The notes beneath the pieces were generated by a model that worked only from the letters and a program-made list of their open reading frames with translations, was not told where the DNA came from and searched no databases. DNA of 64,000 nt from Isoetes taiwanensis (Eukaryota; Streptophyta; Lycopodiopsida; Isoetales; Isoetaceae): NCBI GenBank assembly GCA_021234155.1, contig JAJEKV010000002.1:19395592-19459591 (forward strand), written 5' to 3'. Shown here in pieces: positions 6,114 to 46,616 of this stretch. The position numbers and the translations under genes were made by a program. Each line of letters begins with the position of its first letter. Position 1 is the first letter of the stretch.

Positions 6114-6132
6114 AAGTGAGATGTTCCTTTAC

Positions 6133-6450: not shown

Positions 6451-6864
6451 GATAAGTTGGAGGAATGGATGACGAAATGGGGGAATTAAGATAGAAGATT
6501 TACCAAAGAATTGGCATACAAGCATATCGTAGAGAGAGATAGATAGATTTTTTATACCCACGGGAATCCAAGCGAGTTAAGGGACGTGTACATGCGAAGG
6601 GCAATAGCCCAAATCAAACTCGAAGTCTAAGCCCATTACCGAAGACATAACAAAACAAAAATAACAAAAAATAGTGGTTAAACTTTGGAGTGATTTCAGC
6701 ACAAAAATGAATTTCTACAGCAAGAAATAGATCCCATGATATTATACATTGAACAAGAATATTCAAATGTGGGGATTGGGATAAAATAGACAAAGCTTAT
6801 ATCCCAAGCACGTTGGAGCTCTAATAGGCTAAGCTTGAAATAGAAGTGGAAATAGAGTTGAGCA

Positions 6865-25172: not shown

Positions 25173-25628
25173 CTATCCATAATAGTCCACACACTCCTCC
25201 TCTTCTTCCTCTGAGCTTTCTTCTGCCATCTCTTGGAGTATGGCTTCTGCAACATCTTCATCATCGGAGGAGAGGGCGTCCATGATAATCTGCTTCTTCT
25301 CGTCCTCCAATTCTTCTCGCCACTCCTCATCTGCTTCCTCCATTTCTTCTGCTATTTCGATCTCCTTCTCCAGCTCCTCATCTGAATCTGCAGGTGTGTG
25401 TGGGAACTCCGGGCTGCTAGCACTGCTACTAAGATTCTCATTTCCCAGGCGAAGCTTGCCCTCAATGAACAACTCCTCGCATTCATCCGGACTGTGGTGC
25501 GGAAGGCAGCCATAGCGGCATCTGCGGGAGGGGGGAAGTGATTTTTTGATCAATTTCTTGATCTTCTTCTTCGCCTCCCTGAGGCGAGTCCGGCGGGATG
25601 GAGCGGGCCGGGCAGCATGGCTCACCAT
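25173..25628 (-). CDS. Small basic-then-acidic protein, 151 residues, unrecognised
   Basis: The open frame extends upstream to 25751, but the part before the second Met is phenylalanine-rich and encoded by a GGAA-type repeat, so I choose the ATG at 25628, which lies in a strong context (ACCATGG). The protein then has a basic head (RRTRLREAKKKIKKLIKKSL), a cysteine-bearing middle (RRCRYGCLPHHSPDECEELF), and a long Glu/Asp-rich tail, likely helical, ending EEEEEECVDYYG. The split between positive and negative charge is typical of nuclear or ribosome-biogenesis proteins, but that is only inference. No intron is needed. Its low-complexity tail means chance open reading is possible, though the ordered composition argues for a real gene. 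Confidence 0.5.
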   Translation of the reverse strand: MVSHAARPAPSRRTRLREAKKKIKKLIKKSLPPSRRCRYGCLPHHSPDECEELFIEGKLRLGNENLSSSASSPEFPHTPADSDEELEKEIEIAEEMEEADEEWREELEDEKKQIIMDALSSDDEDVAEAILQEMAEESSEEEEEECVDYYG

Positions 25629-25751
25629 GGTAAGGAAGGAAGGAAGGAAGGAAAGAAGAAAGGCGCTAAAAAAGCAGGGCGCTGGAAGGAAGAAAGGATG
25701 GGCGGTTGAAGGAATGAAGGGTTTCATGCACGATATAGTAGTTGCATGCAA

Positions 25752-26244
25752 GGTTTCGTATAACTTAATAGGCGCGGTTGTAATTATGATTCCATCACAT
25801 CATATACAAATTATACCCAATACGAATTAGCTATCATTACTTTTGTTGAATTAATTACGCCCTAGGTTATCATTAATTCTCTATAGAATTACCCACATGT
25901 CAGCTATACTTACAACCTATTTTATCATTAATTTTGTATAATTATCTAGACCTCAGCTATACTTACAACCTATTTTTGCCTATACTTAATAATCTAGAAT
26001 TACGACCTATACTGAACTCTTTAGTACTACTAACATACACCCATTTTGCATAATTACCTACACCTCAGCTATACTTACAACCTATTTTTGGCTGCACTTA
26101 CAACATATATTTGCCCACTTAATAGTTTTTTTTGTATTTTTTGAAGTTCCCTTTAATCTATTCTCATAATTACTTTGTCCTTTTTTCGAACTAATATTAA
26201 AACATTTAACTTTATATAGGTGAAGCTAACATTGTTCTTGTAGG
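25752..26244. other. AT-rich region with loose tandem repeats
   Basis: CTCAGCTATACTTACAACCT recurs about three times between 25900 and 26090, interleaved with TTTTGTATAATTA-like blocks. A polypyrimidine stretch and TTGTAG at 26239-26244 form a plausible 3' splice site for the following coding remnant. Confidence 0.5.
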
Positions 26245-28626
26245 TCAATGGTGTGGACCACCCAAAGAGTGTTGAGGCTGAGACTACTAAGCAAATTATC
26301 CTCTACAGTAGGTTGGCTTGGAAGAATAAGAATGTGAAAGTGAAGTACCAATGCAATAAGGAGCTAGTAGGTGAAGGAACTATCATACTAGCTGATCCTA
26401 TCCAAGCTGTCAATGATGAAAGGTTAGGAGAGGATAAAGTGGGTGTGGCCATAACAAGTTTAGAAGAAAAATGGAAGGAAAAAGGGTCAAATCACCAGGA
26501 TTGCACTGCTTGTATTAAACAATTGGAGGTTCCATGCATCATGCCATGGCCTATAGCCTGCATTGAGTTTATAGGAGAATTCTTTTTACCAGAGTTAGAG
26601 GTTGTGGATGACACTGATTTTCTTAATGCACCTTCAATAGCTGCCAGGACCACATTTTCAAAGAAGAGGGCACACTAAGTGGTGAAACATTATCCTAGCA
26701 AGAGGTCCAAGTCAAGTAGTGATTGTTCACGTGAAACTATGTCTAAGGTAAGGGGAATGGAATGTTGTTGGGCTAATTGTGTTCAGAAGTTTGAAATTGA
26801 TGAATTGGTGGAAGCAAGAGCCACCTTCCAAGAGTATACTTGTGATGAGAGGAGGACTTACATGTACTCCATTCATGAGCTTGCACTTAAAGATGAAAAA
26901 TATCCAAAGAAAAAAAAATACCCATTGCTAGGGACATGGATATGTAAAGTTGCATGGATAAATATTTATGGCATTCCAATTTCATCTTTGCAAAAATGGC
27001 AAGCAAGTCATGCAAAGCGGAGCAACTTCTAGGATCCTAGCTGTTAGGGAGGTTTTTGAAAAATATGTTGAATTCAATGCTGAGAATATGCCACATAAAG
27101 GTAGGAAAGATCAACAGGGAAAAATAGTTGTCGAGAAGAGATTGCCATCCCATTGTACCCAGAAGAGCATATTGGAGGAAGTGAATGCTTTGCTTCGAGA
27201 ACTAATGGTACCTGCAATATCTCAACCCAGCTTCAGTAGACTATGGAGCAAGCACTTCAAGCATGTCACTATAGACACTTCGAACAACTTTGCAAAGTGC
27301 AACTTGTGTGCTAAGTTGAAAGAGATTCTGGATAAGACCAAGCAAGAAGTCAAAGGGCTAAGATAAGGGAGCAAATGAAAGATCACATGATAGACCAACT
27401 ATCATGTAGATCCACTTATTGGATGTGGAATACATTATCATGTTTGGAACCCAATAACTATGTTTGTATTATGCATGACAAGATGGATCAATCAAAGACT
27501 TGTTTGCCACAATATAGTTACATACCCAAGCAAATCAATAGAACTTATCCTTTGCAAGTCTCTCTGACAGGTGCAATAGTGTATGGCTCGGTGCCAATTT
27601 ATTATGGCCATTTTAGTTTGCAATTGTGGAGTGATGGTCCTGATTTTCATATTGGAAGTGTGATGAGGTGCTTGAGGAACTATGAGAGTGGTTATTCTGG
27701 TGACCTCCACAACCCTGGAGGTGGTAGCCAACTACTGTTCAGTGCATTGTTGGATAGAAAGCCTAATAATTTAGAGAAGTTTACTAAGGCAAGGTTTAGG
27801 AAGTCAGGTGCTTCTGAACATGTTGGAGCCTCAAGTTCACGTCCTCAACCTCGAGATCTACCACCAAAGTTCCTCCTCCAACTTGACAATTGTGCTGGAC
27901 AGAATAAAAACAGGTATATGTTCTCATTCCTATCTTATTTAACAGCTGTGGGTGTCTTTGAAAGAGTGAATTTAGGGTTCTTAATGCCTGGACATACTCA
28001 TGAGGATGTGGATGCATTGTTTGGAAAGTATAGTGCGCAGTTAAAATCCCAAACTGTGACCAATCTTCCTAGACTAATGGAAGATCTTAGTGAATGCATT
28101 TCACCTTCTCCTATAGGGTTGAGAGACTTGATAACACCTGAGGAAGCTGCTGATGTGGTTAGTAGTATTCGCAAGTCAATGGCTCCTCCAGCTGCTGAAA
28201 AACATTATGTTGGTCCTAGGAAAGGAAGGCCTAAATATCTCGGGCTGGAGGATTATGATCCCAAAGATGACTTGCTTTGCCATCAATTTGCACTTATAGT
28301 ATCAGAGCGCAAAGAGATATACCCTGTGTGGATGGGTTACACCATCTCAGCTGTTTGCAAAGAAGTGGGTGACCGCAATGTGAACAAAGTTCGTGTGGAG
28401 TGGTGGTGTCCAGTTAAATGCAATGGCAGAGGAAGAAAGGTATAGAGACTGTTGGACAAATAGATGAAAGAGAAACCCTATTGAAGGGGATGATTGGGTT
28501 GAGTTAGATACTATTTTGTTTTCATGGACCCCAAAGGTCATCCCAGGCAAGACTGCTAGGGTTACAATACCTGTGGAAGTGAGGAAGAAAGCTATGATAT
28601 CTCTAGGGGTCACTTCTGAGAAGTAA
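26245..28626 (+). pseudogene. Decayed gene of the DUF7869 type, probably transposon-derived
   Basis: Four coding stretches follow one another in changing frames. An N-terminal part (26245-26675) is separated by a single TAA at 26676-26678 from an in-frame continuation with CxxxC-like cysteines (MECCWANCVQ) and LGTWICKVAW. A frameshift near 26990, in a run of A, leads to 27000-27340; another near 27340 leads to the main block. That block holds FLLQLDNCAGQNKNRYMFSF and FLMPGHTHEDVDALFGKYS, the DNC...NKNR and GHTHEDVD signatures of DUF7869 proteins. A frameshift near 28430 and a TGA near 28481 follow, and the frame closes at 28626. DUF7869 is common in repetitive gene sets of plants and animals. 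An acidic-residue nuclease (DDE-like) role is suspected, not shown. All breaks are single events, so decay is moderate. Confidence 0.7.
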
Positions 28627-29392
28627 TTGGCATTATGTCACTCGACATGCATATGTAAAATATTTTCAATTTTTAATGCAATGATGTGTGCTGTTATAAA
28701 AAAAAAAATCACATTCTCGATACAAATTTACTAACCCGGGAAAAAGTTGTAGTGCCAAAATTGTCCAAAATCCTGACATAAATCCAATTTAAATGAATGA
28801 TGGTTCAGTCCTTTCTTGAACATCTGCAAATAACAAACATGTCATAAATTTGACTGAAAGATAATGAGGAATATGAGATATATTACTTGACGGAGAAACT
28901 GAGATGAATTTCTTTACATTTGGTGAGCTCTTATAATCACGGGTGCACCAGAACAGAGTAGCAAACATAAATAATAGATATTAGAGGCAAAGATCAGCTC
29001 GCGCCACATATTTCTACCACGGATCTACATGCCATCAGTTCACATTTTTCCACTACATATCCATAGATTACATAACTGAAAGCCATCGATCCACATATTT
29101 CTACCACAGATTAGCACGCTCGGTTACATAATTCCTGCAAAAAATAAAAAGGTCAAGAAAAAAAATTGGAAAGAGCAAAAGCGCTGGAAAATCCAAGGTC
29201 CTTCGAATCAATGGATGAGGCAGAAACGATGATCTGAGGCGCCAGTGTATTTCCTAAACAGATTAGGCTAACCTAACGGAAGCCATGGAATAAGGCTCCT
29301 ACACTAACAGCAAAGAGGCAACGAAAGGCTTGCAAAAACAACAATGGCCAGCCTATTCTGTGGCCAAGCAACACATTTTAAATCTTCCATTC
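28627..29392. other. Region without a gene; carries one shared 31-base block
   Basis: Positions 28775-28805 are identical to 45972-46002. Otherwise only AT-rich DNA is seen. Confidence 0.5.
28775..28805 (+). repeat. 31-base block shared with 45972-46002
   Basis: The block starting GACATAAATCCAATTT and ending GAATGATGGTT is the same in both places, each about 150-230 bases after the end of a decayed gene. The flanks do not match. A common 3' terminal piece of related elements is possible. Confidence 0.7.
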
Positions 29393-29449
29393 CACTACAA
29401 GAGAATAAGCAATCTAAGTCACTAGTTTCATCATTTATTTGCTTAAAAT

Positions 29450-29960
29450 CACACTTTCAAATTTTTTAGATTTTGATACAATAAGTGACGGTAGCTGTTG
29501 ATGAAATTGCATCATCTATATCGTCACTTGTAGCATCGCCAATAACAACAGTTGTAGTATCATATTTTATAACATTGTAGTGGCATAATAGTATCATTTG
29601 TAGTATCATCCATAGCTGCAGTTATAATATCATGCATTTTGTCTTTGTTGTGCTATAATAGTGTCAGCTATAGAATCAAATGTATTGCTATAATTAAGTC
29701 ATACGTAATATCACCACGAGCGCTATAATAGTGTCACCTATGGCATCATCTGTATTGCTATAATTAAATTACTCATAATGTCAACACAATGCCACATATA
29801 ATATCACGTGGAGGTTATAATTGTATCATTATTAACGTCAAGTATAATATCATGTATTGTTACAAATTATACCATAATTATATCAAATATAATTCCATCT
29901 CTTCCATCATCTAGAAGCCCTGTATAAAATTGGGGTCCGAAAGATTTAATTCAATAGTTC
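29450..29960. repeat. Left sub-terminal short-repeat array of the CACTA-like element
   Basis: Degenerate units built on GTATCATTTGTAGTATCATC and TATAATAGTGTCACCTATG recur about a dozen times. The reverse-complement style occurs at the other end of the element. Confidence 0.6.
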
Positions 29961-30666
29961 AATTACCTAATATATCAGATGTTATTTTCAATGGTCTAGT
30001 TATATGAAATATATATAAAAATAGTACACATTATGTACAAAGTATATATAGAAAGGCAATATAAGAAATGCTTGTGAGCATTTGGTATACAAATTAGCAT
30101 AAGAATAGAAGGAATGCAGCATACGTTTTTCTAACCTAGAAAAAAACCAAAGGATGCAGCATACACAGAAAAATCTTTCCTAATTGCCCCATTGTTATTG
30201 CCCAGAATGTAATGGTCACTCAATGTCTTCCTCTTGCATTAATGTTTGCAAAGTATACATTTTTGCCATGCCAAGTGCAATGACAAGTGCGATGCAATTT
30301 TCAAGCTGAAGTATGTCTTTCCAAATATCCTGCCTACGCATCCTGCCTGGCAAATACTGCCTGCCAAATCTGGACTGCAGCACCACAATGATATCAGACG
30401 GGCATGTGGCATAGCCACCAAGCTTATGCCTATCTACCATGTAGAAAATCCAGATGTAATCCTTGCTGCCCAATAGAACCATGAGTGCTGTTGAGGAGGT
30501 TTGAAAATGACATCTTGTATACAATTTGGAAGCTTCTCTTTTGCTAATTGATGAACCAGTTATTTATCTACTTCAGCTCAAGTCCAGTCTCCTGCACTAG
30601 CACAACTTATATTTAGTGCTCGTTCAATGTTAAAGTAAATATTTTAAAGTTTGACCACTGCCTTTT

Positions 30667-31075
30667 TGGCGTAGGATAGTCTTACCCTGGATTGGGGGAT
30701 CCCGGAGGTGTGATCCCGGAGGACGGGATCCCGAAGGACGTGTGATCCCGGAGGGCGGGATCCCACTGTTAACTGCGCAGTTAAAAGGTGACTGCGCAGT
30801 TTAGGGCCATTTTTTGGCCGGATTTTTGCTTGCTGATAGCAGCGGCGCTGCCCTCTCTTCCTCCTTGGCATCAAACTACAGCTCTTCTCAAACCCATTCC
30901 GACCAACCTCGCACAAACCCCAGCCGATTCCGTGGAGGATCGGCCAAGAAAAAAGCATAAGAAGACTTTGCTGATTTTCGGAATAATGGGCTTTTTTTTT
31001 TCGCAGTTACTGCACAGTAAGGGGATCCTGCCCTCCGGGATCACACGCCTCTGGGGATCCCGTCCTCCCTTTTTT
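30667..31075 (+). mobile_element. hAT-type MITE, copy 1, right end incomplete
   Basis: GGCGTAGGATAGTCTTACCC at 30668 and the inner blocks ACTGCGCAGTTTAGGGCC and CACAGTAAGGGGATCC match the element at 34035-34424. GGATCCCG-type palindromes are more numerous near the left end. The right terminal inverted repeat is missing: the similarity stops in a run of T near 31073. Confidence 0.55.
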
Positions 31076-31333
31076 TATGCTTACTGTTGGATATTGCCAT
31101 TTAGCATGAGCATGCCACCAGGCTATAGGAACAGAGATTGTGTTGTGTCTCCAGGGAGCTTGTCAGTGCGCCTTACATGTACTGTCCTTGCACTTGCTCT
31201 GTATCCCTTCATTATCTCTTGCAAAATAATATTACTATCAGTATTTTATAATCACTTAGAAACATGCTTCTGAACTTCAAACAAGAATTACCTGCGTCAA
31301 TTCAAGCTTGGGCTCTTGTCTAACCCCGTCTTC

Positions 31334-31665
31334 TTTCAGTTTCAGTCATTATCCTGCCAATAATCACTTTCTGCTTGGCCTTCCTCATCATCTGACATGG
31401 TTGAACTAGAGTTGCATTCTCGTTGTGTTACCTTGTACACAGGCAGCTTAAGCCATGTGTTAAATTTTTCAAATTGTAAATCTTGTTGGCCCGATCCATA
31501 AGTCTTCTTTCAATTCCAGTCATTATCCCGCCAATAACCATTTTCTACTTGATCTTCTTCATCATCTGACATGGTTGAACCAGCGCAGCGTTCTCCTGGT
31601 GTTACCCCTGTACACAGGCAGGTTAAGCAATGTGTTAAGTTTTTCAATTCGTATATCTTGTTGGC
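31334..31665. repeat. Tandem duplication, unit about 174 bp
   Basis: TTCAGTCATTATCCTGCCAA near 31338 and TTCCAGTCATTATCCCGCCA near 31511 open two copies that share CATCATCTGACATGGTTGAA and TACACAGGCAG and differ by about one base in ten. Confidence 0.8.
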
Positions 31666-34026
31666 TAATAACTGATATCAACATAAACAGTATCCATGAT
31701 TCATGATTAACTAGAGTTTCTGTTTATTATTTTGCAGATTCATTTTACCCAAAGTCCACATGTAAAAACGAGTCTCATCTTCAAAGCAAAAAAGTATTGA
31801 CTGCCGTGTAAAATAATAACAGGGATAATCTTACCAGTCAAGCTTAGAAGATGATCTCGTAAATAACTGCTTCTTTAGAGCCATGTGTGGGCGGAGCACT
31901 GTGTGGCCACGGAGCACTGGGAGCGTACTGCAACGGAAAGGAAGGGAAGATTTCTTGGAATCTGCTATCTCGGTTACTGCTTGACAAATAGCAAAGCGAA
32001 TGGATTCGACACCTGGGGGGCAGCTGCAAAGAAGTCCGACCACAGTGAGAAGGAAAGAACTTTAAAGTACAAGCTGCTATCGTTTGCTTCTCAAGCAACA
32101 AATCTGTAAGAAACCAAACCATGTAATAGCAGTTTGAGGATTTTGGCTGCTGCTATCCAAGATCCAATGCGTTTTCTACTTCCGGTTTTTCCATATTGCA
32201 TTTTGGGCGCCGACGCCAAAAGCTCTGTGCCAAAATATCACAGCAAAATTTAGCCCTAAATGTTTGCATAACCCTCATTGTAAGCAAAATTTTTCCTTAA
32301 TTATTTCGCCATAAAATTGTTGGTACGCATATATACACATACAAGAAATTTGGGCTGGCGGAGCCACTGCCCTAATGCACACATGGGAGTTCGCTCGCTG
32401 AAGGTTCCTAGGAGGAACTTGGCGGCGGTGAGCGGCGGCGCCGCTAGGTTCTTCCCATGAACCTTTAGGTAGCGTAGTTTCCCCAACATGTTCTACCGTA
32501 CCCCATATTACCCCTATAGATTGGTATGTAGATTAAAGAGTAGAATCGCCTGCAAATCGAAAGCTCTGTAGATTGGAAGACATAGCAGAAGACACGAAGC
32601 TCCTACTTTCTTTTGTTTTGCCCCTACTCTGTTTCAAGATACAGAGCCTCTGATGATTTTTGGCATTGTTATGGTCGTGGAAGCACTAGTTTTGCTGCGA
32701 ATAATATACAGAATCATCATTTGTTGCCGATTTGCATGCATCATGTCGATTGTGACGTGCTTTTGCGTCCCACAAATATTTCCCACAAATCCACACTTGT
32801 CGTTGCGTCATAGCCAATTCCATCAAGACCTCCAAGAACCGATTTTGCTGTTTAAGGTATGCAACCGACTTTATTTTGCAAAATGCAAAATGTTTTGACT
32901 GCTTTTTCTTGATCTTTGATGATTATTCCCTTGCTCCATCTTCAGATATCTTCTCCCTTTCAAGAGATTCTGTAGATATCAGAAGGTCTTGTGATCCACA
33001 GATCCGTATTTAGAAGCAGGGCCCTGATCTGTAAAACTCTGTTGGCGGCACCACCAGAGCAGGAAGCCCAAAATTACTTGGAATACAAAACTGCGATAAT
33101 CTAGGGTGACGTATGTTACAAATCCAAATACAACCATTGGTGCAAAACCGTGTAGAGAGGAGATATCTTCAAATATCTTTAGGTCTTTACATGAGAATAT
33201 GTTCAATGCGTATGGTTGGGAGTTGAACTCAAAGATAATGTATGCTTGGATCCTCATCTAACATGCCCCATATATGCAGTTTCGTGTTACACCTATTTAT
33301 AAGAGCTCTGATCTCTTAATACAACTTGGGATCAACCTAGGTGTGTGATTAGTATTAGCCAACATGGAACTAATGCTTAAAAGAGCGTAAACGAACTAAA
33401 AATATAATCAGCCTACCCTAAAGGTTCAATTTTGCCATTAATGGTTAAAATACCATACTAGAAAAGGGTGATCACCGAATAAGCGGGTGCTCACCAGCGA
33501 TGGCCGAAAGCCATCGAGTTTAGGCACCATCTCTGCCCGATTTTGATTGATTGAACAAAGGGGGGGGGGAGGGTTCCAGGTGCAAATTGCTCTAAATTGA
33601 ACCTTGCATTTGCATGTCCAAATTACGCAAGCTTTGAATGAAACGCAGCAAAAAATCACCACACAAATTGACAAAAAAAAAAACACCTTGGAGCTACAAA
33701 TTGAAAAGAACCACCAGATTAGAGCCAGAGGATTCAAAGGGTTCTTCAATTAGCGGTATCGTGGCACAACCTTAGTTTCGTGGCACAACCTTAGTTTACC
33801 AGGTAGGCAAAGGTTACTATAAAATTTCTTTGGTAGATATTCTCCCCCATTTGCTAGTGAATTTGGTGCAATTCTTCCCCATTGGATTGTGCTGCGAGTG
33901 AGAATTGCAGCAATTCAGTTGAAACTCCAGTTTGTCTACCAACAGATTGACCAAATAATAATATTTTAGATTATGATGTTGATGAAAATGTAGAGATTGG
34001 TAACGAGGCCCCACATTTGGTGATAG
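31666..34026. other. Interior of the CACTA-like element without recognised genes
   Basis: Short open frames occur on both strands but none carries a domain. A GC-rich palindromic patch lies at 32385-32460 (GGCGGCGGTGAGCGGCGGCGCC). A 19-base unit GTGGCACAACCTTAGTTTC is repeated twice at about 33762-33799. Confidence 0.4.
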
Positions 34027-34034
34027 AGGATATT

Positions 34035-34424
34035 GGGCGTGAGATAATCTTACCCTGGATTGGATCTAATCCTCTGAGATATCCACATGGGACTTCCTCC
34101 TCTAGGATCACGTCGTCAACGGGATCTTCTCCTTCGAGATCCCACAGTTAACTGCTCAATTAAAGTGTAGCTGCGCAGTTTAGGACCGATTTTTGGCCGG
34201 ATCGTTTAGTTTCTCCTTGGATCCTACGTGCTTCTCTTCTCAGCCCATTCCAATCATCCTTGAAGTGATGCCGTTCAATTCCGTGTTGAATTGAGAGAGA
34301 AAAAACAACTATAAAAAACTTTGATTTTCCTTATAAGGGGCCATTGTTTTGCACATTAACTGTGCTGTAAGTGGGATCCCGTCCTCTGGGATCCCCCAAT
34401 CCAAGACAAAATGATCCCGCGCTG
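34035..34424 (+). mobile_element. hAT-type MITE, copy 2, complete, with 8-bp target duplication
   Basis: The 390-base element opens GGGCGTGAGATAATCTTACC and closes, on the minus strand, with CAGCGCGGGATCATTTTGTC. Both ends run into TGGATTGG. It is flanked by AGGATATT (34027-34034) and AGAATATT (34425-34432), seven of eight bases alike. An 8-base duplication and a CAGCG-like end are the marks of the hAT superfamily. It has no coding capacity. Confidence 0.65.
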
Positions 34425-34439
34425 AGAATATTGCACACG

Positions 34440-34990
34440 ATATAAGAGATGAGGTGGCACTTGGAATTTTGCCAATAGAATCTTTTGCTTTTTGTCAATA
34501 GGAATTTGAAGAAGGTAGTATCATTACAAATGATATTCCAATGGTCATAAGCATTAACACTTGTATTGTCATTATAAAAAATACAAGAAGTAATGATATT
34601 AAGAGTGACATAAGCCGTGATATTATCCATGATGCTATTATCGACACATATAGCATCATATGCTAGCACTGATATAATATTGTCAATATGTGATACTATC
34701 GGTGAAGCTATGGGTGATAATGTAACTGGCATAAGCTATAACACTTATATTGTCAATAACACCATTGGAGTAATAAATGATGTAATGTTGATGCAATATG
34801 TGATATTATTCATGACACTATTAGTAACACATATATTGTCATTAATTAGTACTGATATAATTGTTGAGCAAATTTATGACGATGTTGATGATGTTATAGA
34901 TGATAGAATCTTATCATTCATAGTGCCATTGTACCTTGAATATCATTATTTATATCACTTAGTACTTTTTTAAATTTTAGGTGATATTAA
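34440..34990. repeat. Right sub-terminal short-repeat array of the CACTA-like element
   Basis: Degenerate units built on GTGATATTATCCATGATGC and ACTGATATAATATTGTC recur across the region, in the orientation opposite to the array at 29450-29960. Confidence 0.6.
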
Positions 34991-35021
34991 AGTGATGAAA
35001 AATGACTATCCTCTTGTAGTG

Positions 35022-35894
35022 TTATAGTTTGCGTTTAAAACCGTGTGATTTGAGACCCTGTTATTGCAAGAGGGAGTAAATGGGTCATACCTGCTCCAAC
35101 AATTCCTCTGGAGATTTTGACGCGTTGTTCCTGCAATTTGTAAGAGTCTACTTGCAAGAGCAATTTGCTACTGACGATTAGCTCATGCCTCGTTATTTTG
35201 CAAAGCCCCAAAATAATGGTAGGCAGAAGAGCTTGATGTAGCTTGGATTGGAGATGGACAGACGACGATCTGCAGATGGATCGGCGTGAATTTGTTGAGA
35301 GTTTGGAGTTGAAAGCAGAAATTGAAGCTCCTCCACCGTATCCACCATAACGGCTGCCATGCTACATAATGCCATACCCACCACCATAACGCCATATACA
35401 CTGCCCACCGACCAAAGAGAAAAACCAAAAACCAGCACAAATATATTTTCCGGTTCCAAAACTCACGCTTTTGCTCCAAAGAGGAGGAGGAGGTTGAGGG
35501 CTATTTTTTTTTGTTTTTGTTTGTTATTTAGTTTTTTGTTCAGGAAAGCGAGCTGGGCATCTCCAAAAAAGGCCTCAACTGATGATTATGAATGGAGCTA
35601 GGCATCTCCTTAAACTGCCTAGAACTTTTGTTATTTTGGAACAAAGAGCTGGGCAACTCTAATAAAAGGCCCTCCTTATGTAAAATATTTTGCTGGCAAT
35701 ACAAGGAGTTACTGACTGTAATATGTTTCTTTAGTTTCTACTCTCACTTTAATACAGCAATGTAATTTCTTCAGAAGCTGTTTTGAATTCTGGCTCTTTC
35801 ATTCTTAATTTTGAGAGAGCTCAATCTTAGATTTGAAAACATGCCAAGATGCGAAATAAGTTTGTGTGCAAAATGTTTAAATTGTACAGTAGTC
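35022..35894. other. Region without a recognisable gene
   Basis: Open frames at 35183-35601 on both strands overlap and carry no known domain. Two short similar blocks (GAGCTGGGCATCTCC near 35549, GAGCTAGGCATCTCC near 35595, GAGCTGGGCAACTC near 35647) suggest local duplication. Confidence 0.4.
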
Positions 35895-36163
35895 CAATAC
35901 ACGTCTGGCGTGAATTGCATACAGTAACTAGCTTTCTTATCTTAGTATTTCCTCTTACAAAAAAAACTTCTGCTAATTATATTAATGCATTCAATGAGTT
36001 TACACTTCAAAAGACTTCTGCTAATTACAGTAGTGCATTTAAATTATAAATGAATGGAATTCGCGCGTGGCGTGAAATCACTAATTTTTTTCCTCTCTAA
36101 CTTACAGATTTATGAATTCGTGCCTGGCGCGTATTCAACTGAACACACGCCTGGCGCATATTC
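35895..36163. repeat. Four more copies of the quasi-palindromic motif
   Basis: Copies at 35895-35918 (CAATACACGTCTGGCGTGAA), 36057-36081 (GAATTCGCGCGTGGCGTGAA), 36114-36136 (GAATTCGTGCCTGGCGCGTA) and 36141-36163 (ACACACGCCTGGCGCATATT). They stand just before a coding-like segment at 36274. Confidence 0.65.
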
Positions 36164-36273
36164 AACTGAAGTTCCTCCTGTGCCAGAAGGACATTTCTTG
36201 CCAGGGCCTATGCCAATTTTATAGTTTCGTGAAGGTCTTGATATTTACTGCCATATTATTCGTTCTTGGTGAG

Positions 36274-36522
36274 ATGTGGTCGGGGATGGCTACAAGCATA
36301 GGCTTATTCAATGAGTTGTGACGTGCTCTTGAGGGGCTTGAAATGGAGAATGCTCAGCTGAGAACGAGAGTTGCAGACCTCGAAGCTATTTTGGGTAATA
36401 TCCCAATAGCTGCACCATCTAATTTGCCAGATTCTTGTGTGCCAGCTTCTCTTGTTACAACAACATTTGAGACTACTGTACCAGCATTTGAGACTACTGA
36501 GGAACAACACACAGAAGAATAA
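36274..36522 (+). pseudogene. Short coiled-coil coding segment with one stop
   Basis: From the ATG at 36274 the frame reads MWSGMATSIGLFNEL, then a TGA at 36319-36321, then a leucine-heptad stretch (GLEMENAQLRTRVADLEAIL), GNIPIAAPSNLP and a Thr/Glu-rich end, closing at 36520-36522. The segment LEAILGNIP resembles ESTLGNIP in the large unknown gene at about 44830, in a similar place after a charged helix, so it may be a piece of a second copy of that gene. Confidence 0.4.
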
Positions 36523-36668
36523 CACACAGATGTAATTAAAACAATGTAAAGAGTGTCTAGTGTTTTGTAAATTCCTGAATGGTCTGGTCTGCAGGCCTTA
36601 TAGTTTTGAAATTTTGAATGAATGGTCTGGTAGTATGCAAGCGTTTTAATTTCATACATATGACAGAA

Positions 36669-36974
36669 TCAGCTTGAGCATCTTAGTATAAGTAAATCTA
36701 TTTTTTCTGATGCATCTTCCTCTATTTCTTCCCAAAAAATGAAACTCACCTTCTTTAAGCGAATTACTGGCCATGCAACAAAGGTTCCGATGCTTTCACC
36801 GACTGTGTCTCCATCAGGATGCCTTTTGGGTAATACTTCGTCGTTGAAATGGCAACTGGTAGCTAGGATCTTCACATGATCATTTCCAAGAGGAACTCCA
36901 TGGCATACTGCTTCCAGATCGACTGATTCTATCTTGCAATTTCCCACCCTCCTCTTCAAATTCGTCATCAGCAT
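36669..36974 (-). pseudogene. DUF8039-like fragment of a CACTA/TNP2-type element
   Basis: The minus-strand frame carries HGVPLGNDHVKILATSCHFN and then DTVGESIGTFVAWPVIRL. The pattern 'xGVPLGxDxVKV...TVGEAxGxxVAWP' is what I know from DUF8039, a domain found beside TNP2-type transposases in plant CACTA elements. Only this domain is visible. It lies outside the CACTA-like element that ends at 35021, so it comes from another copy. Confidence is limited because it rests on motif memory alone. Confidence 0.45.
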
Positions 36975-37027
36975 GTAACATTCCTATCCAATGCTGTTCA
37001 ATATCGTAAGATTATGGGATTAATTTG

Positions 37028-37440
37028 GAGCTTGCGATCTAGAAGAGTTCGACATCGCTCAGGCGCAGGCTCGACATCGCTCAGGCGCAGGCTTCTTCCC
37101 AGTTCTTTCGAGTTCTTTCGAGTTCTTCCAGTTCTTCCCAGTTCTTCCGAGTTCGAATGGCAAGAAAGGCTGGCGGCAATATTAGGTGGCAGTTTCAAAT
37201 TATCCGTTAATTGTACTGCTTTTTTAGCGGCTGAGTGAAATCTAATTATGGATTTCATAATACGGTGGTCGTAGAGCCATTAAATGTCGATCCAAACCCG
37301 ACCGTCGATTGCTTATGGAAATCTATATAAGTTTTTGAATTTCATTTCTTGTTTTTGATTGCAGACTTGCTCCGAGGCACTCAAGAACTCAAGAACTCCA
37401 AGGCGCTCAAGAACTCAAGAACTCCGAGGCACTCAAGATC
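37028..37440. repeat. Facing tandem-repeat blocks forming an inverted repeat
   Basis: A 22-base unit (TCGACATCGCTCAGGCGCAGG) is duplicated at 37029-37072. It is followed at 37090-37150 by GAGTTCTTTC- and CAGTTCTTCC-type units. At 37374-37436 a 26-base unit (AGGCACTCAAGAACTCAAGA...) stands in tandem about 2.5 times and is complementary in style to the first block, so the two could pair across some 230 bases. Confidence 0.55.
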
Positions 37441-38448
37441 AACGCGAAGATGCCGCCCAAAGGTCGTGCTGCTCCAAACTCAGGCCGAGCCACGAGAGAA
37501 GCTGTTCAAGATCAGTATTGTTCAAGTGTTTAGGCGTCTGTTCATTGCTCTGATTATTGTGCAGTGTTTGCTCTGTATTTACTGTTAATAAATCTTCTGC
37601 CCGGCTGCTCATACTCCTGTCTATCATTTCTATAGCAGTGACTTAAATTTGCATTTGCATAATTAATGTCCTTCCTGTGTTAAATTGTCATGCCCGTGTC
37701 TATAATTTATCCACCTGTGAGTAAAATAGTATGACCGTATTTAATTGGCCTGCCTTCGAGTGACGGTTCGGCCTTTCTGTAATTGTCACGCCTTTTGAGT
37801 GTGTCTGTAATTGGCGACTGTATGCCATTCTGTATAGTTTAGCCTAGCCGGAACGGTTGACCACTCGAAATCGCGCTAAGCATGTATTGCACCTTCGTTT
37901 GCAGGGAAGAAGAGATAAAACCGATTGGTAATTGCTACACCTCCTACTAAGAAAGCAAGAGGCTCGGAAGTTACTCCAGCGACCTCAAGCTCACAGAAGA
38001 AGGGAAAGCCTAACGAGGACGCAGTATCCTATGCATTGTCAATAGATGATAGCAGATCCATTATCAGAGTAGACACAGATCCTTGATGGCCCGAGAAGAA
38101 GATGGATGACAGTGCGGAGTGGTATGTTGACGTAGGCAAAACAAATGGTAAGGCGGATCTTGTGTTACACTCCAGGAAGAAAGAGACCGATCTTATGAAG
38201 AAACAAGGTACTCTTATCACTTGTGAGGAGCAGGATGACATATGTTGTCAACTCCTAGTGGAGGTTGTGAAGAACCACAAGAAAGATTTCATCAGATTTA
38301 CACATGCCAGGGCAACTGCTTTCAAAGATGGTCTGATGAAGAAGGATGTGAGTGCTGAGTCATGTTTCAAGTATGGATGGCCTCAAAATACTGCTCTCAC
38401 TCCAGTGTCTATCAGGGAAAATTTTAAGGGACCTATAATTTTGTACAA

Positions 38449-39230
38449 GTATAATGAATTGGCCATTCCTTATAAAATATGCCCCCAAAAGTGTAGTCTG
38501 AATTGGCCATTTTTCCTATTTTTTCCTAATGTGGATGCAACCCAATTGGCAATTTTTGAACTAAATATCTATTAGTGTAGCTCAAATGGCGATTTTTAGC
38601 TAGATTCTTATTAAATATAGAGGTAGTTGCCCAGACATAAAGAAGTCGCTACCTTATAAAATGTGTTAAGTTACATGTTGTATGAATTTGAATTCATAAC
38701 CCATGTATTTCAATAATGCACAGATTGCTAGTAGGGAGAATCAGAAATCGGATGCCAGAGTCTTCATAAAGAGGATTGAAAAGTAACTTGACATTTGATT
38801 TTCCAAAAGAGAGGGATTATTCTTAGTTAGTAGATATATTTAAGAATAAAAATTTCTAATAATGTTGGCCCCCCATAAGTGACAAATTTATGGGGGCCTC
38901 TTAATGAGTTAAGATTTGGCGAACTTAAGGCATTACAGGATTTGGCCAAGTGCCTAAATGGCCATTCCATAAGCATATCTAGTTCTCACTTGGGACTAAA
39001 TTGGCCCCAAAGTCGATACCACTCCAATTAGCAAACATCTAATTGGCCATTCTAATGTCGTAATGGGCAATAAAGTGCCACAAAATGGCGAATCTGCAGG
39101 TACTCCGTAGGTAAGGCATCCTACTCAAGCCGGCCGTCGCATTTTGCCTGAACCTGTAATTTGTGGCCAAATGGCCCGCCCGGGCCACTAAATTTTTCGC
39201 TGGTGTCTATAAGTGAAGGGGTGTCTGCAG
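38449..39230 (+). repeat. Probable intron with a recurring AATTGGCCATT-type motif
   Basis: Between the donor TACAA|GTATAA at 38449 and the acceptor CTGCAG at 39230, variants of AATTGGCCATT occur about ten times, for example at 38457, 38501, 38543 (CAATTGGCAATTT), 38585 (AAATGGCGATTTT), and several near 38940-39100. They are self-complementary or nearly so. This is a different motif from the GGCGTG one but shows the same habit of filling an intron. Confidence 0.45.
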
Positions 39231-39478
39231 TGAGGAGAGCTTTGCGAGGACCTTCTCCAAGTTACTACCTGGAACAGTTGAAGCATCGAAATGATATCAG
39301 GAATGTATGAAGATTGCTGGACTTAGGAAAGGACATCCCAGCTGCAACAGTTGATGGCATGTTGGCAGAAAATGACTCCGAAAAAAAATCGCAGCTGGAG
39401 GCAATGAGTAGGCTAGTCAAGTATGCAGACAACTAACCACTTGACCAATCTTTTACACATCCCATCTATGTTGACCGT

Positions 39479-40005
39479 TGTGATCCAACAGATTGAATCA
39501 AACCCCAAGCTGAGCAGAATGCAAAATATATGCATCAGGCTGTGCCACACTCTACCAGCAAATAGATTAAACACAAATTGCAGATGAAGAAGGAGAGAGA
39601 TAAAATAAGTCTGGAGGTTCATCCTCCTCTTCTATTGTGAATTCTTCCATGGAATACACTCTACTATAATAGATCTCCTTCAAGGCACAAGAGTGAGAGA
39701 GAGAATGAGGAGACGTGCCCCTCCTCTTAAACTTACACAGCAAATCTTGACCATTCATCTTCAAGCAATCTCCACCGTTAGATCTTCAATAACCACATGC
39801 CCTTTGAGATCATGCCAATTCATCAAATATTCAACCATTAAAATGGCTTTAATACTCCTTCAAGCCCATATACAAGTGCCCACACTCTAAAACATCCAAA
39901 AAATATAATATCTTCTCCAACTTCAACAGATAAATCATCAAACATACATCAAATATGACAATTTGGTGCAAAACATCAAAATGTGAACAGATAAACCACA
40001 TTACA
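39479..40005 (-). repeat. LTR, left copy (3' LTR in element orientation), 527 bp
   Basis: It is nearly identical to 41660-42172. The main differences are a 12-14 base insertion near 39945 and scattered substitutions, so the insertion is not brand-new. Confidence 0.85.
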
Positions 40006-40726
40006 TTATTCCCCCCCATGAGTATTCATCGTCTCGATGAATTCTTCAAAAATCTTCCAAACATATATCAAACTCGCTCAAGCTAGCTGGTCTATAAAAA
40101 TAGCACTGCAACTTAATGAAATCCATTATCCAAATGTCTTCAAGTCTTCAAAAACATCTATAGAAGACTTCCAAGGAAAAGAAATACTAAAAACTTCTAA
40201 CATCACTTCATCTTCATCAATCATAGGGTGGCAAGTCCCATCCAGGTCAGTGGCACCCTCGCTCTACTGCCTTGGCATAGCGCTCTATCCCCTTCACAAC
40301 ACTTATAATTCTTCATCACATTTTACATAGGTCATGAGATGCTGCTGCCTTTCTAGGTCAGCACATCCATCATGCCATCCATAATCACTTAAATAAAATA
40401 TAAAACTTGTACAACTTCCTTTGATAGGTTGAATTATTGAAAAAACTTGAAAATGAAATCCAATCAAATTGCAAAAGCATAAGCACTAAACACATATTCT
40501 TGATCTTCATAATATGGTGTTGACTTGAATAAGCTCGTTGGAGAATAAATAGTCTTCTCTGAACATTGATGGTCTTCAAAAATATTAAAACTCCAAACAA
40601 ACAATGGTTGATTCTTCAAAGGAACTTCAATTCTTCTTAATATTTGGGAATATGTTTTGGGCACATACATATACTTGCATAAATTATATCGTCAAGTGCA
40701 ATATTGGGACTTTGCTAAAATATGAA

Positions 40727-40800
40727 CTTGGTCTAGATTCGAACAGTAAACCTCGCATTTGCTAGGCCACATCTCTTACCATCTCATTCCAATTACTCTT
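40727..40800 (-). ncRNA. tRNA-like Pol III module (SINE head) inside the LTR element
   Basis: On the minus strand ATGGTAAGAGATGTGGCC (A-box-like, 40765-40782) is followed after about 12 bases by GGTTTACTGTTCGAATCT (B-box-like, 40735-40752). No cloverleaf is proposed. The arrangement resembles tRNA-derived plant SINEs. Confidence 0.4.
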
Positions 40801-41659
40801 TTATAAATTTTTCCCTATCTTTTTTTTTTTCTATTAAACAACATCCTTTTCTTTCTTTTGATTTTTCTTCTTCTTTTCTCTGCTACTCTGTGCGCGCGGG
40901 CAGGGCCATTGGGGTATGATGGAGCAATGGTAAAGAACGGCGGCTTCAGATCAAGCTCTGGCTATGTCCCAGATTTCTATCTTGTTTTTTTCTTCTTTCT
41001 ATGCAAGGATTAACACTTAGAATAGGGCAAGGAATGACATGGAAAGATCACAAGCTTTTTCGTCCTTCTCAGGGTTTGTTTGGCTATGGCTGCGAAGCTT
41101 TGTACAGGATGTCCACTGGTTGAAGCGTGAAAGAGAAGGCAACAAATTTATTTTTTCAAGGCTATTGCACAGATTGAGTGGCAAAGCTTCAGATAGAATC
41201 AGAAACAAGCATTTGATGGATAATTTTAGCAGGCTTAGGACGAAGAAATGGCATTAAGCTTTGTTTTATATGCAGGTAGCAGAGTAGGTAATGGCACAAA
41301 ATATATAGCAGACGGTTTCTTTGTTCAGAATTAACAATCAGAGATATATCAACATAATTCTGTTTATGAGAATATGGATTAACTTGAAGCTTACAACTCT
41401 ATCACAAGCACTCCGTACAAGCTTTACTGGCCAGGCAAAGGAAGAACAGAAGCCATATATTTATTGAATTCTAGAAATTTCTGAAATGCTTCATTTATAG
41501 CAGAACCATACCTCTTAGTCTGCTTCATAATGATTTGGAAGAAGAAATAAGTCTGCAAATCCACTTCTTATTCCTTATGCTGCTATATATAGATGAGATT
41601 ATCATCATAAAAATCATGCTAATAGAATGCTGCTTCTTCTCGCAATGCCCCCCAAAAAA

Positions 41660-42172
41660 TGTGATCCAACAGATTGAATCAAACCCCAAGCTGAGCAGAA
41701 TGCAAAATATATGCATCAGGATGCACCACACTCTACCAGCAAATAGATTAAACACAAATTGCAGATGAAGAAGGAGAGAGATAAAATAAGTCTGGAGGTT
41801 CGTCCTCCTCTTCTATTGTGAATTCTTCCATGGAATACACTCTACTATAATAGATCTCCTTCAAGGCACAAGAGTGAGAGAGAGAATGAGGAGACGTGCC
41901 CCTCCTCTTAAACTTACACAGCAAATCTTGACCATTCATCTTCAAGCAATCTCCACCGTTAGATCTTCAATAACCACATGCCCTTTGAGATCATGCCACT
42001 CCATCAAATATTCAACCATTAAAATAGCTTTAATACTCCTTCAAGCCCAAATACAAGTGCCCACACTCTAAAACATTCAAAAAATATAATATCTTCTCCA
42101 ACTTCAACAGATAAATCATCAAACATAAATTTGGTGCAAAACATCAAAATGTGAAAAATAAACCACATTACA
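41660..42172 (-). repeat. LTR, right copy (5' LTR in element orientation), 513 bp
   Basis: It pairs with 39479-40005 and shares its ends. It is followed directly by ACCGT and the resumed host exon. Confidence 0.85.
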
Positions 42173-42644
42173 ACCGTCTGGTGAGATCACATAAGTCAAC
42201 ATTTGTTAGCAGGAGGTATGACCCGGAGCATGCTAGAGAAATCTTGAGGGCGATGGTGAAGAATCCAGGCCAAGTTCCTATGCCAGCAGACGTGCTTCCT
42301 TGGGATAGGAAAAAGGATGCTCCACTCCAGTGGACAACACTAGAGGAGCTTACAGTGGAGAACCCTAATGTATGCTTTCTCATTATTGACGGACAACATT
42401 CTATTGAAGCACAACGATCCCTATCCAATCAGGCTAAGCAAACAGGACAAACCATGTATCTGCTACATTACAACCACAGGAAATGTCGGTTTCTAAGCCC
42501 CCATACCCCTGCAGAGGATCTCGCAGAGATTAGTGCAATATTGAACGAAATGGGCGAAGTCTTTCTTTATAAAAGGTTAGTACATTAGGTGGCCTTTAGT
42601 TAGATATATCAATAGACTAGGTCCGGCGTGTGTCCAGGCGTGCC

Positions 42645-43034
42645 AATTCGCGTCGGGCGTGTATTCATGCTGACAATTCGCAGGATGAATGCACGCCTGG
42701 CGCGAATTGGCCATAAACTGCCTGACCAAAATGCTTCTGGCGTGTATTCAGCTGGCAATTCGCGATTCAGCGGCGCGAATTGCCAGCTGAATACACGCTA
42801 GAAGCATTTTGGTCACAGCTGAATACACGCCAGAAGCGTTTTGGTCAGGCAGTATATTGTCAATTCACGCCAGGCGCGAACTAGCAATCTCCTGCGTGCT
42901 CAAAACGCTTCTAGCGTGTATTCATACAGCGGCGCGAATTGTTAGCTGAATACACGCTAGAAGCGTTTTCGTTAAGCAGTTTATGGCCAATTCGCGCCAG
43001 GCGTGTATTCATCCTGCGAATTGTCAGCATGAAT
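42645..43034. repeat. Inverted-repeat array of the GGCGTG motif inside an intron
   Basis: Arms 42663-42753 and 42944-43034 (91 bases each) are inverted copies with six mismatches by eye. The 190-base centre holds further copies in both directions, such as GCGAATTGCCAGCTGAATAC and CAATTCACGCCAGGCGCGAA. A transcript could fold into one long hairpin. The array lies wholly within the intron 42576-43114. Confidence 0.8.
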
Positions 43035-45080
43035 CCTGTTGGCTTGATCTAAAAAGCGGTTCATTTTTGTATGCCCTGCTCCTATTGGCTGATATGATTT
43101 CCTTATTCGTGCAGCCCTTACGTGGAACAACTCCGTCATGCCCGCCAGCAATGGATAGAATATGAAAGACCGGTGCAAACAAAACAGGGAGGAACGAAGT
43201 CTGAGGAGTATAAGGCATTGGAAAAGACCTTGGTCTAGACTATCATCCAAGATAAGAAACTAAGGCCCAAAAAGACAGGAAAAAAAATTGGGAAGGAAGC
43301 AGGCGAGACGTCTGAAGCATCTTCCAGAGGGCCTAGAGATGCCTACAGGATCATCTTCTAAGGACGAAGCCTGGGTGAAGGGGAACGAGTTTTGGGATGC
43401 TTATGCGCAGAAACAGCTCCTAGATGCAACGAGAAGAGTGCCTCCTCAAGATAGTTCAATATTTGATTTGAAGACCACCAAGATGAGGAAAGTACAGGGC
43501 CTTCAGGATGATGAAGTCATTTGGCTGTTAAATCAATGCATAAACAAAGAAGTTCTGTACAAGAAGGCTTCTTCAGTCAAGGACAAAATGTCCTTCGTTG
43601 ATTGTTGCACTCATATAAAGGACATGCGAGTTATGAAGGTAGCAGTTAGTCAAGAACTTCAGAAGCTATTTGGTGATGTAACATTGTCTGAACTCGGCCT
43701 GCTAGACAAGTATGGTGTGTCTGCTGATGACATCAAGAAATACGTCTTCTGGTCCAAGGAATTTCTGCAAAACAGGAAATCAAATAACCAACAGCACACC
43801 ACAAAATTATCAGATAAGGTGATGGTTGAGCTGAGAAGAAAGGTTGCCATCCTGAAAGATGTTGGTGGTGACTTACCTGCACTCCAATACCTGGTCTCTA
43901 CTGGCTATAAAGGTCTCCTACCCGATACAACAATAGGCCCTCGTAATATTTCTCTGTTTGTATTGGATAGCAGGACTGCAAAAGGAGAGAAGGGGATGAC
44001 TAAAAAAGAGTACAACAGTTTTTTTACTAGCTGCATAGGTTTAACAACTGAGAAGCTCTTTACTATTATCATCATATGCCCCCCAGAAGAGCCTCATATG
44101 CATGCTTTGGTGGCTTCATACGACTTGGAATGTCTAAAGGTCGTTAGGGAAGGTTCTCTTCTCTTTGAGACAAAGGATACTGATTTGAGGATGCAGTTTA
44201 AAAGCACTTGTATAATCTTCATAATGATATCCCTTGTGCCAGATGATGACTATGAGGTAGCTAAGAGCCAAGGGGCATCAGATAAAGGTGCATGACAGTG
44301 TTTTCTTTTGGATGAACCCAGCTTGAAAAATGTTCTACAAAGCAGATGATGAGGATGAAGCAAATGAAAGCCAGGAATTTGATGTTTCTAACCTCTACCG
44401 GAAAGACATCACTCTGGAATTGCTGACAAAAGAAAAGGGGCCCTTGAATAAACATGGGTTTGCAATCAATTTGGCAAGCTATCTTGTTGAGGCATTTGCA
44501 CCACTTGATACCACTTGCTGTGAACTACATGTTGGAGGGTATATTGGTAGAGAAGCCCTGAAGACATCAAGAAGATGTTTAAGTTTCGTCAACGATGACC
44601 AGTCCAGGGATTTCCTTGAAGTGTTTTTCGAAAAGGTACTAGCCATAGCTGATTGGGGTCCTGTCAAAGATAAAAACCCCTTGGCTTTGGTCCTTACAAA
44701 GGGCAGAATCAGGCTACTAGTTCACAAAAGCCTCCAAGTGCAACTCCAGAATGTTCAAAAAGCAATGCAACCTCCGAGGAGAAGGCCGCAATGCTAGCGC
44801 GGGAACGTGAGATCATGGAGCAAAATATGGAGTCCACGCTTGGTAATATTCCAACTGGTAATATCCATCTTGGCGGTATGACTACGGTAGTTCCTGATAC
44901 CAGCCAGGATGATCATGCAAGCTCAGATTCAACCACTGAGGTTAGGAATCAAAACCCTGTGGTAGATTTCATAGAAGAGAACATGTCCGAACTAAACCAT
45001 GGAGTTAATGCTTCTGGCAGTAAGCATCCGGGGAGTGAAGTAGACGCTACGACTGCTGGGGATGACAGTGATGATGAAAG

Positions 45081-45148
45081 GTAATTCATGCCAGGCGTGA
45101 TATGTAGCTTACTTATGACGGACAAAACGCGCTTGGCGTGTATTGCAG
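45081..45148 (+). repeat. 68-bp intron made almost wholly of two motif copies
   Basis: The intron opens GTAATTCATGCCAGGCGTGA at its donor and closes ACGCGCTTGGCGTGTATTGCAG at its acceptor, so both splice sites lie within motif copies. The two exons join in phase (AG|A codon). Confidence 0.6.
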
Positions 45149-45971
45149 ACCACTTTTGTATGACTCTCTTTGTTTTCCATGGTTTAAGGCTCCACCTGCT
45201 TGTGACAAAATCATTGTCTTCGATCAAGTGGATCTATCCTCGTCCACACTTAGAAGATATGATGAATGAGGCGTTCAGATTGTTTTGAGTTGCCATCTGG
45301 TCCTCAATGGAATATAGAAATGTTGATGAAGTACTTAGGGTGTTACCAGGCATGAATCCAGACTTTGTGACGATTTGGGACCAAAGTAAGTGTATAAAGT
45401 TTCCACATTTAAGAGATCCGGATGGCAAACCAGTCTTCGTGAAACATCTTGGTACTATGATGGATCAGCTTGGCATTCAAAAGAAAGAGGACATCACAAT
45501 AGTAGATGATGATGCTCTTAAGTGCTTTTATAATCAAGGTCGGGCTCTAAATCCACCAACTTATACTCCATTAGATTACTCAACAGATGAGTTTCTAGTA
45601 CTATTCATGTCCATCATGAGTGGCTTGGTTGTTGGTAAAATAGTATCAGATGTTGTCAAAATGCATCCAGAACTAGATTGGACTAAGGAGATGGATCCCT
45701 ATCTTGAGAGTTATTTGACAAAGAAAGGACTAGTCCCTCTATGATGTAATCTTCATATCAAGTGAATATAATGTAAAAAGTGTTCTGTGTATATTGATGT
45801 GTTGTTATCTATAAATGCTAATCAAACACCACATTCTTCTCACTAAAACAAGAACATGTTAAACCACCCAGTACTATAATGCAAAAATTTACAACAATGC
45901 AAAACAACATGTCACACACCACAACACTATATTGAAAAAAGGGTATGCAAAAGTGGCGTGCTTTTGGAACA

Positions 45972-46002
45972 GACATAAATCCAATTTAAATGAATGATGG
46001 TT
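45972..46002 (+). repeat. 31-base block shared with 28775-28805
   Basis: Identical to the block downstream of the DUF7869-type remnant. It starts 227 bases after the stop at 45744. Confidence 0.7.
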
Positions 46003-46616
46003 ACTGGATATTGTTTGCTATTTGTGCAAGTTCAGGAAAAGCTAAACTATCCTTTTGTTTTGTCAATTCATTGTTATTGCAGCACTGTTCATTCCTCAAA
46101 TCTATGTTCTAATTGTGTGAATGATCTTTGTTTTACAGATAACGAAGCTTTTTTGACATGCGCAAAGGAGATGCAAACCTGGCATCGTTCTTAAATGATT
46201 CTGATGTTTAGATCTTGCAATGCCAGTGCCCAGATGCAGATAAGCAGGTGCATCTAAGCAGATTGTTTAGGCCTTCAAGCTGAGAAACAATCCCTAATAA
46301 AGTTGTCATCTCTGTGTTTATCAGCTTTCTGCAATAATGTATCCCGATTTCACCAAAGATGCATTTAAAGTTTTCAGATTTATAGGAAAGGCAGAGGCAA
46401 CAAGCAAGGGGCAGACAATCGAGGACAAAGGCAAGCGACAAAAAGGCAAGCGGGCAAACAAAGCGAGTGTGACAAGCGAGCAAAGGATTGAGGCAAAGAA
46501 GAAAGCAAAGTTTAGTTTATCTTTGGTAAATAATTCGGGGATACACTTTTGCTCTGAGGAGCATCGTTTAGTGCATTTCCACAATAACTAACATCCTTTG
46601 CTCCTTTCTCTCTCTA

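Follow-up and report, generated by a model that had tools for sequence, protein, structure and literature searches.

The window analysed here is a 64,000-nucleotide stretch of the lycophyte Isoetes taiwanensis (GenBank assembly GCA_021234155.1, contig JAJEKV010000002.1, positions 19,395,592 to 19,459,591 of the forward strand), in which an original prediction had reported a quasi-palindromic motif concentrated in the introns of an unknown gene and its possible relatives. Judging from its sequence features, this gene is the accessory gene of a large plant DNA transposon family with terminal inverted repeats (TIRs). The tie of the motif to this gene family and to its predicted introns is borne out. 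What had been missed is the TIR transposon itself, whose ends have hundreds of matches genome-wide, and an inversion that divides the window copy and places its other half at 25194-28805. The features of the locus are listed below; exon and intron borders come from open reading frames (ORFs), splice signals and the comparison of copies, and all introns are predicted.

5561 to 6451, plus strand: remnant of an old, degenerate relative of the accessory gene (coding remnant 5561-5745, tblastn E = 1.6e-5)
25194 to 28805, minus strand: left element part, inverted relative to the remainder, from comparison with eight other copies
27336 to 28445, plus strand: ORF with a DUF7869 domain, likely transposase (PF25273, E = 2e-32, 112.8 bits, cut-off 26)
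28775 to 28805, minus strand: left TIR in the inverted half, an exact 31-bp match to AACCATCATTCATTTAAATTGGATTTATGTC
28806 to 28809, minus strand: left target-site duplication, ACTG in element orientation, matching 46003-46006
35479 to 46002, plus strand: right element part, colinear with other copies and bearing two later insertions
35896 to 36162, no strand: motif cluster A, with sites 35896, 36058, 36115 and 36142, found at the same place in other copies and in a diverged relative
37450 to 37510, plus strand: accessory exon 1 (MPPKGRAAPNSGRATREAVQ), predicted from sequence and colinearity; the donor reads AT in the window copy
37868 to 37888, no strand: single weak motif site with 4 mismatches, ending 16 nt upstream of the intron 1 end
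37905 to 42575, plus strand: accessory exon 2, interrupted by insertions at 38420-39202 and 39479-42172, carrying the IIDGQHSIEAQ (DGQHR-like) motif
42576 to 43114, plus strand: predicted intron B, 539 bp, filled with a palindrome array (sites 42645-43009)
43115 to 45080, plus strand: accessory exon 3, colinear in other copies, with frameshifts or stops there
45081 to 45187, plus strand: predicted intron C, 107 bp, with sites 45083-45103 and 45124-45144; the acceptor reads AA in the window copy
45188 to 45744, plus strand: accessory last exon, with a weak NIF-phosphatase-like match
45972 to 46002, minus strand: right TIR, exact match
46003 to 46006, plus strand: right target-site duplication, ACTG

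The extent of the transposon follows from the comparison of copies. In eight other copies, the sequence matching 25194-28805 continues straight into that matching window position 35479, and the right end at 46002 is common to eight of the nine copies compared, the ninth being truncated. The exact 31-bp TIR stands at both ends of the window copy and of two complete copies, c60 (9,115 bp) and c236 (10,529 bp), and all three of these copies are flanked by 4-bp target duplications (ACTG, ATAG and ACCT, respectively). A further copy, c1037, has TIRs with 1 and 5 mismatches, a decayed left end and no visible target duplication. Across the whole assembly (1,658,258,908 bases in 1,110 contigs), the TIR is matched 516+554 times with no more than 2 mismatches and a reversed control 0+0 times, and the 48-bp right end has 173+147 matches at up to 3 mismatches. 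The family thus has the marks of a TIR element, namely inverted repeats at both ends and a target duplication of a fixed length of 4 bp. Because the DUF7869 ORF, 369 amino acids (aa) long, is situated within this element, its product is likely to be the transposase; a Pfam scan returned DUF7869 alone, and the fold model (predicted local distance difference test score, pLDDT, 34) is too poor to use. The TIR starts with AACCATC and the duplication measures 4 bp, where a CACTA element would start with CACTA and duplicate 3 bp, and neither a Tnp2 domain nor a Mutator-type transposase match was present in the subset of element ORFs scanned by Pfam. By the sequence features tested, the element is therefore neither a CACTA element nor a VANDAL, the latter being Mutator-like.

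Several later events have marked the window copy and others. About 10.3 kb at 25194-35478 were apparently inverted after the transposon had inserted, which reversed the left 3.6 kb of the element, with a breakpoint within an acidic, E-rich ORF, and left both TIRs and the ACTG duplication intact. Exon 2 holds an element of long terminal repeat type with long direct end repeats (39479-42172, ACCGT on both sides) and an insertion of about 783 bp at 38420-39202, which is absent from the other copies aligned there and whose flanks share GTGTCTAT. Elsewhere, two partial copies (L009-L010) at C1018:17.72 Mb share one orientation and are separated by about 6.7 kb, and unusual GC-rich substitutions and indels occur in the coding parts of copies on small contigs (L017, L018, L020, L024 and L026), perhaps as consensus errors of a long-read assembly.

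The motif, AATNCRCGCCNGGCGYGNATT, is a directional 21-bp quasi-palindrome in which outer halves AATTCGCGCC and AATACACGCC flank a CGCC-N-GGCG core. The window holds 13 sites at up to 3 mismatches, where 100 dinucleotide shuffles average 0.03 and never exceed 1, and 18 sites at up to 4 mismatches, which start at 6173, 6372, 6431, 35896, 36058, 36115, 36142, 37868 and 42645 and, further along, at 42688, 42728, 42822, 42862, 42902, 42949, 42989, 45083 and 45124. The observation of a repeated motif is thus confirmed, although the copy first given at 5371 is a half-site. No other window position reaches the 4-mismatch cut-off, the DAHP synthase and PPR genes from which the motif was said to be absent not having been located themselves. 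Genome-wide, the count that had been called for gives 1,421 matches (723+698) to the 17-mer of the motif at up to 2 mismatches, and 10 (2+8) for a reversed control. The occurrence of the motif in both orientations also holds up: among 184 sites from 33 sequences, with 32 sites of no clear direction left out, 74 of 98 classified neighbour pairs (up to 100 bp apart) are inverted and 24 are alike, so that orientation is mostly alternating. Neighbours prefer spacings of 42-43 bp (28/44), 40 bp (22/30) and 30 bp (9/24).

These sites belong to the transposon wherever they could be placed. From the 1,421 genome-wide matches, 100 with 0 or 1 mismatch were listed, which correspond to 67 loci; 53 of these could be assigned to the family, either from their sequence or through an exact TIR close by, with none found outside among them, and the other 14, all on contigs after C942, were left out of placement. 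On contigs C1-C942, 26 of the 39 motif loci have an exact TIR no more than 15 kb away (9 also placed by sequence, 17 by the TIR alone) and sequence assigns all of the remaining 13 to the family, the exact-TIR list being complete up to C942 except within C942, itself devoid of motif loci. The chance expectation of 0.2%, obtained with TIRs spread genome-wide, is too low for contigs C1-C942 alone. Among the 28 loci on later contigs, 10 are near a listed exact right end and 4 more were placed by sequence. At loci with exact motif matches, the sequence is colinear with the window gene. For the examined loci, the motif is part of the transposon, and the uniform genomic spread that would have spoken against a link to the gene family is not what we see in the 53 placed loci.

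Within the element, the sites concentrate in predicted introns. In 17 sequences picked through motif hits, the window included and the diverged copy C198 left out as it gave no match, intron B holds 77 sites in 7,360 bp (14 of 14 copies), intron C 15 sites in 1,273 bp (9 of 12) and intron 1 6 sites in 7,250 bp (6 of 13), whereas the 51,866 bp that match accessory exons or the 36322 ORF are free of sites, a count that excludes the open frame of cluster A. At the position of 37868, related sequence is present in other copies even though only those six of 13 have an intron 1 site at up to 4 mismatches, and the first intron C site begins at the third base of the intron. Because this sample is biased for the motif, we chose a motif-blind one: 20 copies found by exon 3 alone, taken in list order from the 40 scored of 285 candidates, passing over C1070:7989106 and copies already sampled, and thus made up of the most window-like members. 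Sites are present in 18 of the 20 copies and in 16 of 16 where exon 2 was found, with 90 sites in 12,411 bp, a count in which the boundary of L053 is irregular and four loci with no donor found entered with a stretch of 1 kb each. A reading of the motif as a subterminal repeat was rejected, the sites being internal in both complete copies. In intron B of the c164 copy (L023), an AT-rich insertion of several hundred base pairs lies beside CCAGGC motif sequence in the array.

The placement of the motif in predicted introns applies to intron B, to intron C and to the site before the intron 1 acceptor, and is less certain at cluster A. Here a 56-aa open frame at 36054-36221 takes in sites 36058, 36115 and 36142, which would be read in it as EFVPGAYSTEHTPGAYSTE. 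The end of this frame (..STEVPPVPEG..) stays readable in c412, in which the last site lies within an ATG-started frame. Part of cluster A may therefore be coding, and the motif may belong to the coding sequence of a small protein. Adjoining cluster A, a small ORF at 36322-36522 contains a leucine-zipper-like stretch (LEMENAQLRTRVADLEAIL); its product is a possible DNA-binding partner.

The same places carry the core of the motif in a diverged relative. This relative, C198, is about 30% diverged, with an identity of about 70% across the transposase region, and two further copies of its type, L035 and L040, are 87-88% identical to it. This type keeps the core CACGCC or GGCGTG in intron B, in cluster A and ahead of the intron 1 acceptor, whereas outer halves and spacers differ. 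In intron B of the relative, 323 bp contain 7 half-sites where shuffles give 0.38 (0 of 1000 reach this number); cluster A has 4 in 421 bp (0 of 1000) and the stretch before the intron 1 acceptor 2 in 113 bp (2 of 1000), both stretches having been bounded after the half-sites were seen. No half-site occurs in 1,141 bp of its exon 2, and its whole 9.2 kb holds 16 against 2.71 in shuffles (0 of 200). The core is conserved at the same places in this relative. Furthermore, sites 6173, 6372 and 6431 (6173-6451) in the old remnant follow the same donor context, GAAAG^GT. Among seven close copy pairs with exon identities of 95-97%, introns match over 25-81% of the longer intron; low pairwise values of array against exon divergence were set aside as unreliable because free end gaps were allowed.

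The accessory protein resembles DGQHR/DndB proteins in the motif IIDGQHS(I/V)EAQ, which both the main family and L035, a copy of the diverged type, retain, and differs from them in profile matches, which fall far below cut-off for TIGR03187 DGQHR (E = 0.08, 12.7 bits against 58.85) and are weak for PF14072 DndB (best E = 0.027, in 1 of 6 members). The last exon matches PF03031 weakly (E = 0.001, 19.2 bits, below the cut-off of 21.8). The fold model of the DGQHR-like exon (pLDDT 48) is too poor to use, and searches of solved structures returned no significant relative for exon 3 (best E 0.33) or for the DGQHR-like stretch (best E 0.66). No Rfam family was found in the window at gathering scores.

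By analogy with VANC and with the subterminal arrays of CACTA elements, we propose that the arrays are putative binding sites for an element-encoded protein, with anti-silencing or regulation as the outcome, and give this a probability of roughly 0.55. Such a protein would bind its own palindrome arrays, situated above all in one intron of the accessory gene, intron B, and binding would in turn protect the element from silencing or regulate it. The binding, the identity of the binding protein and the effect of binding are what we infer from the analogy. Among the three readings offered originally, the best fit, as a candidate function, is a site bound by the protein of the gene itself. Going further, the family could be an independently evolved second anti-silencing system of transposons, in which a non-VANDAL lycophyte element encodes a DGQHR-like protein that recognizes its own co-evolving intronic arrays; we regard this extension as doubtful. 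The observed/expected ratio of CpG, at 1.14-1.18 in intron B, 0.45-0.55 in exons, 0.34 in the transposase part and 0.63 and 0.86 in two other non-coding stretches, is compatible with anti-silencing, not proof of it.

A number of observations weigh against binding by the element's own protein. The accessory protein has no confident family, given the weak profile matches and the poor fold model. The high CpG ratio may be explained by the motif alone, and the regular spacing may have been inherited along with duplicated units. A purely non-coding picture is at odds with the possibly coding part of cluster A, whose two or three sites in the open frame stand outside the exon count, and with a single site within the 7,588 bp assigned to exon 2 in the motif-blind sample. 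At the cut-off used, intron C lacks sites in 3 of 12 copies, as does intron 1 in 7 of 13. Within the family, moreover, the conservation of intron C sites does not exceed that of their flanks (0.82 against 0.84-0.87), perhaps owing to CpG decay.

Alternatively, the arrays might act as RNA, with hairpins in the intron transcript controlling splicing or feeding small-RNA silencing, which we consider unlikely. Intron B of the window, folded without its first base, reaches -307 kcal/mol (z -22.7), 8 of 11 intron B copies fold strongly (z of -8.9 or below, 12 shuffles each), and one site lies at a donor (intron C) and one near an acceptor (intron 1); however, the other three of the 11 fold weakly (z -3.3, -2.9 and -0.7), and strong folding is expected of any array in both orientations. 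Covariation points the other way as well. Over 175 distinct sites and with G-U not counted as a pair, none of the ten dyad pairs has an excess of Watson-Crick pairs over independent halves (largest z +1.4), and pair 6/16 has fewer than independent halves give (z -4.8), a deficit that is weaker against RNA than it appears because G-U went uncounted and G with T is common there (30 of 103 sites). The two halves of a site tend to keep different outer bases. The intron C fold is no better than column-shuffled alignments (z +0.57); 1 of its 17 predicted pairs, outside the sites, has changed on both sides, in one copy. RNA covariation was thus found neither within sites nor within intron C sites, and the lack of covariation between halves speaks for a double-stranded DNA site rather than an RNA signal. 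The structured intron signal of the original prediction is, on balance, disfavoured, the strong folding of most intron B copies notwithstanding.

If the sites are bound as DNA, they might still serve the transposase, as binding sites or transposition enhancers like those in the subterminal regions of CACTA elements. Passages of PMC2613891 describe palindrome-forming border repeats in the soybean element Tgmt*, able to form 2 palindromes at the left and 12 at the right border, and a proposed element-encoded DNA-binding protein that would attach to the motifs; the alternating orientation seen here resembles that arrangement. Nevertheless, the window site closest to the right end is 858 bp away from it, the complete copies c60 and c236 lack sites in their transposase part, and facing neighbour exact TIRs among the matches listed are at least 9.1 kb apart (read by hand), with no short derivative among them that could show whether the array is needed in cis. 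We hold this role to be quite unlikely. Most improbable is that the motif is a selfish micro-repeat multiplying in introns with no function for the element. The order and number of array units do vary between copies, with direct and inverted duplications, as such a repeat would lead one to expect, yet the same places are kept in the relative with other spacers, and the mobile micro-repeat originally suggested is left unsupported because the 53 placed loci of 67 are in the family with none found outside among them.

Sequence-specific anti-silencing by transposons is described, in the portions of the literature at hand, for VANDAL, Spm and MuDR. A lycophyte family with hundreds of end matches, a well-marked candidate target array and an accessory gene would make a repeated origin of anti-silencing testable and let the joint change of target arrays and proteins be tested, and concrete ends and a duplication length are now given for a DUF7869-bearing transposon. 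Among titles and abstract openings, we found none on DUF7869 and, under Isoetes or lycophyte palindromic repeats and transposon superfamilies, none resembling the element.

In the Arabidopsis VANDAL/VANC system, as far as passages of the two papers go, a short motif is highly enriched in the family and in non-coding sequence, with different motifs in related families (PMC5735166, PMC10398659), and VANC targets lie in introns of the VANC and VANB genes, in fast-changing repeats (PMC5735166). The Isoetes family likewise has a family-specific motif, dense in non-coding parts that include accessory-gene introns and varying in its repeats between copies, with cluster A possibly coding in part. It differs in its likely transposase, a DUF7869 protein, and in its 4-bp duplications, and whereas the VANC21 motifs in those passages are 9 bp long and share one orientation, those found here are 21-bp dyads that mostly alternate; anti-silencing is described there and proposed here by analogy. 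With the subterminal arrays of CACTA (En/Spm) elements and their TnpA-like binding, as portrayed in parts of PMC2613891, the family shares arrays in both orientations that are capable of forming stem-loops, as well as a motif that differs between subfamilies and a proposed DNA-binding protein encoded by the element. The TIR and duplication length are unlike those of CACTA elements, and where the Tgmt* arrays of that account stand beside the TIRs (within 159 and 732 bp), the arrays of the Isoetes element are internal and mostly intronic.

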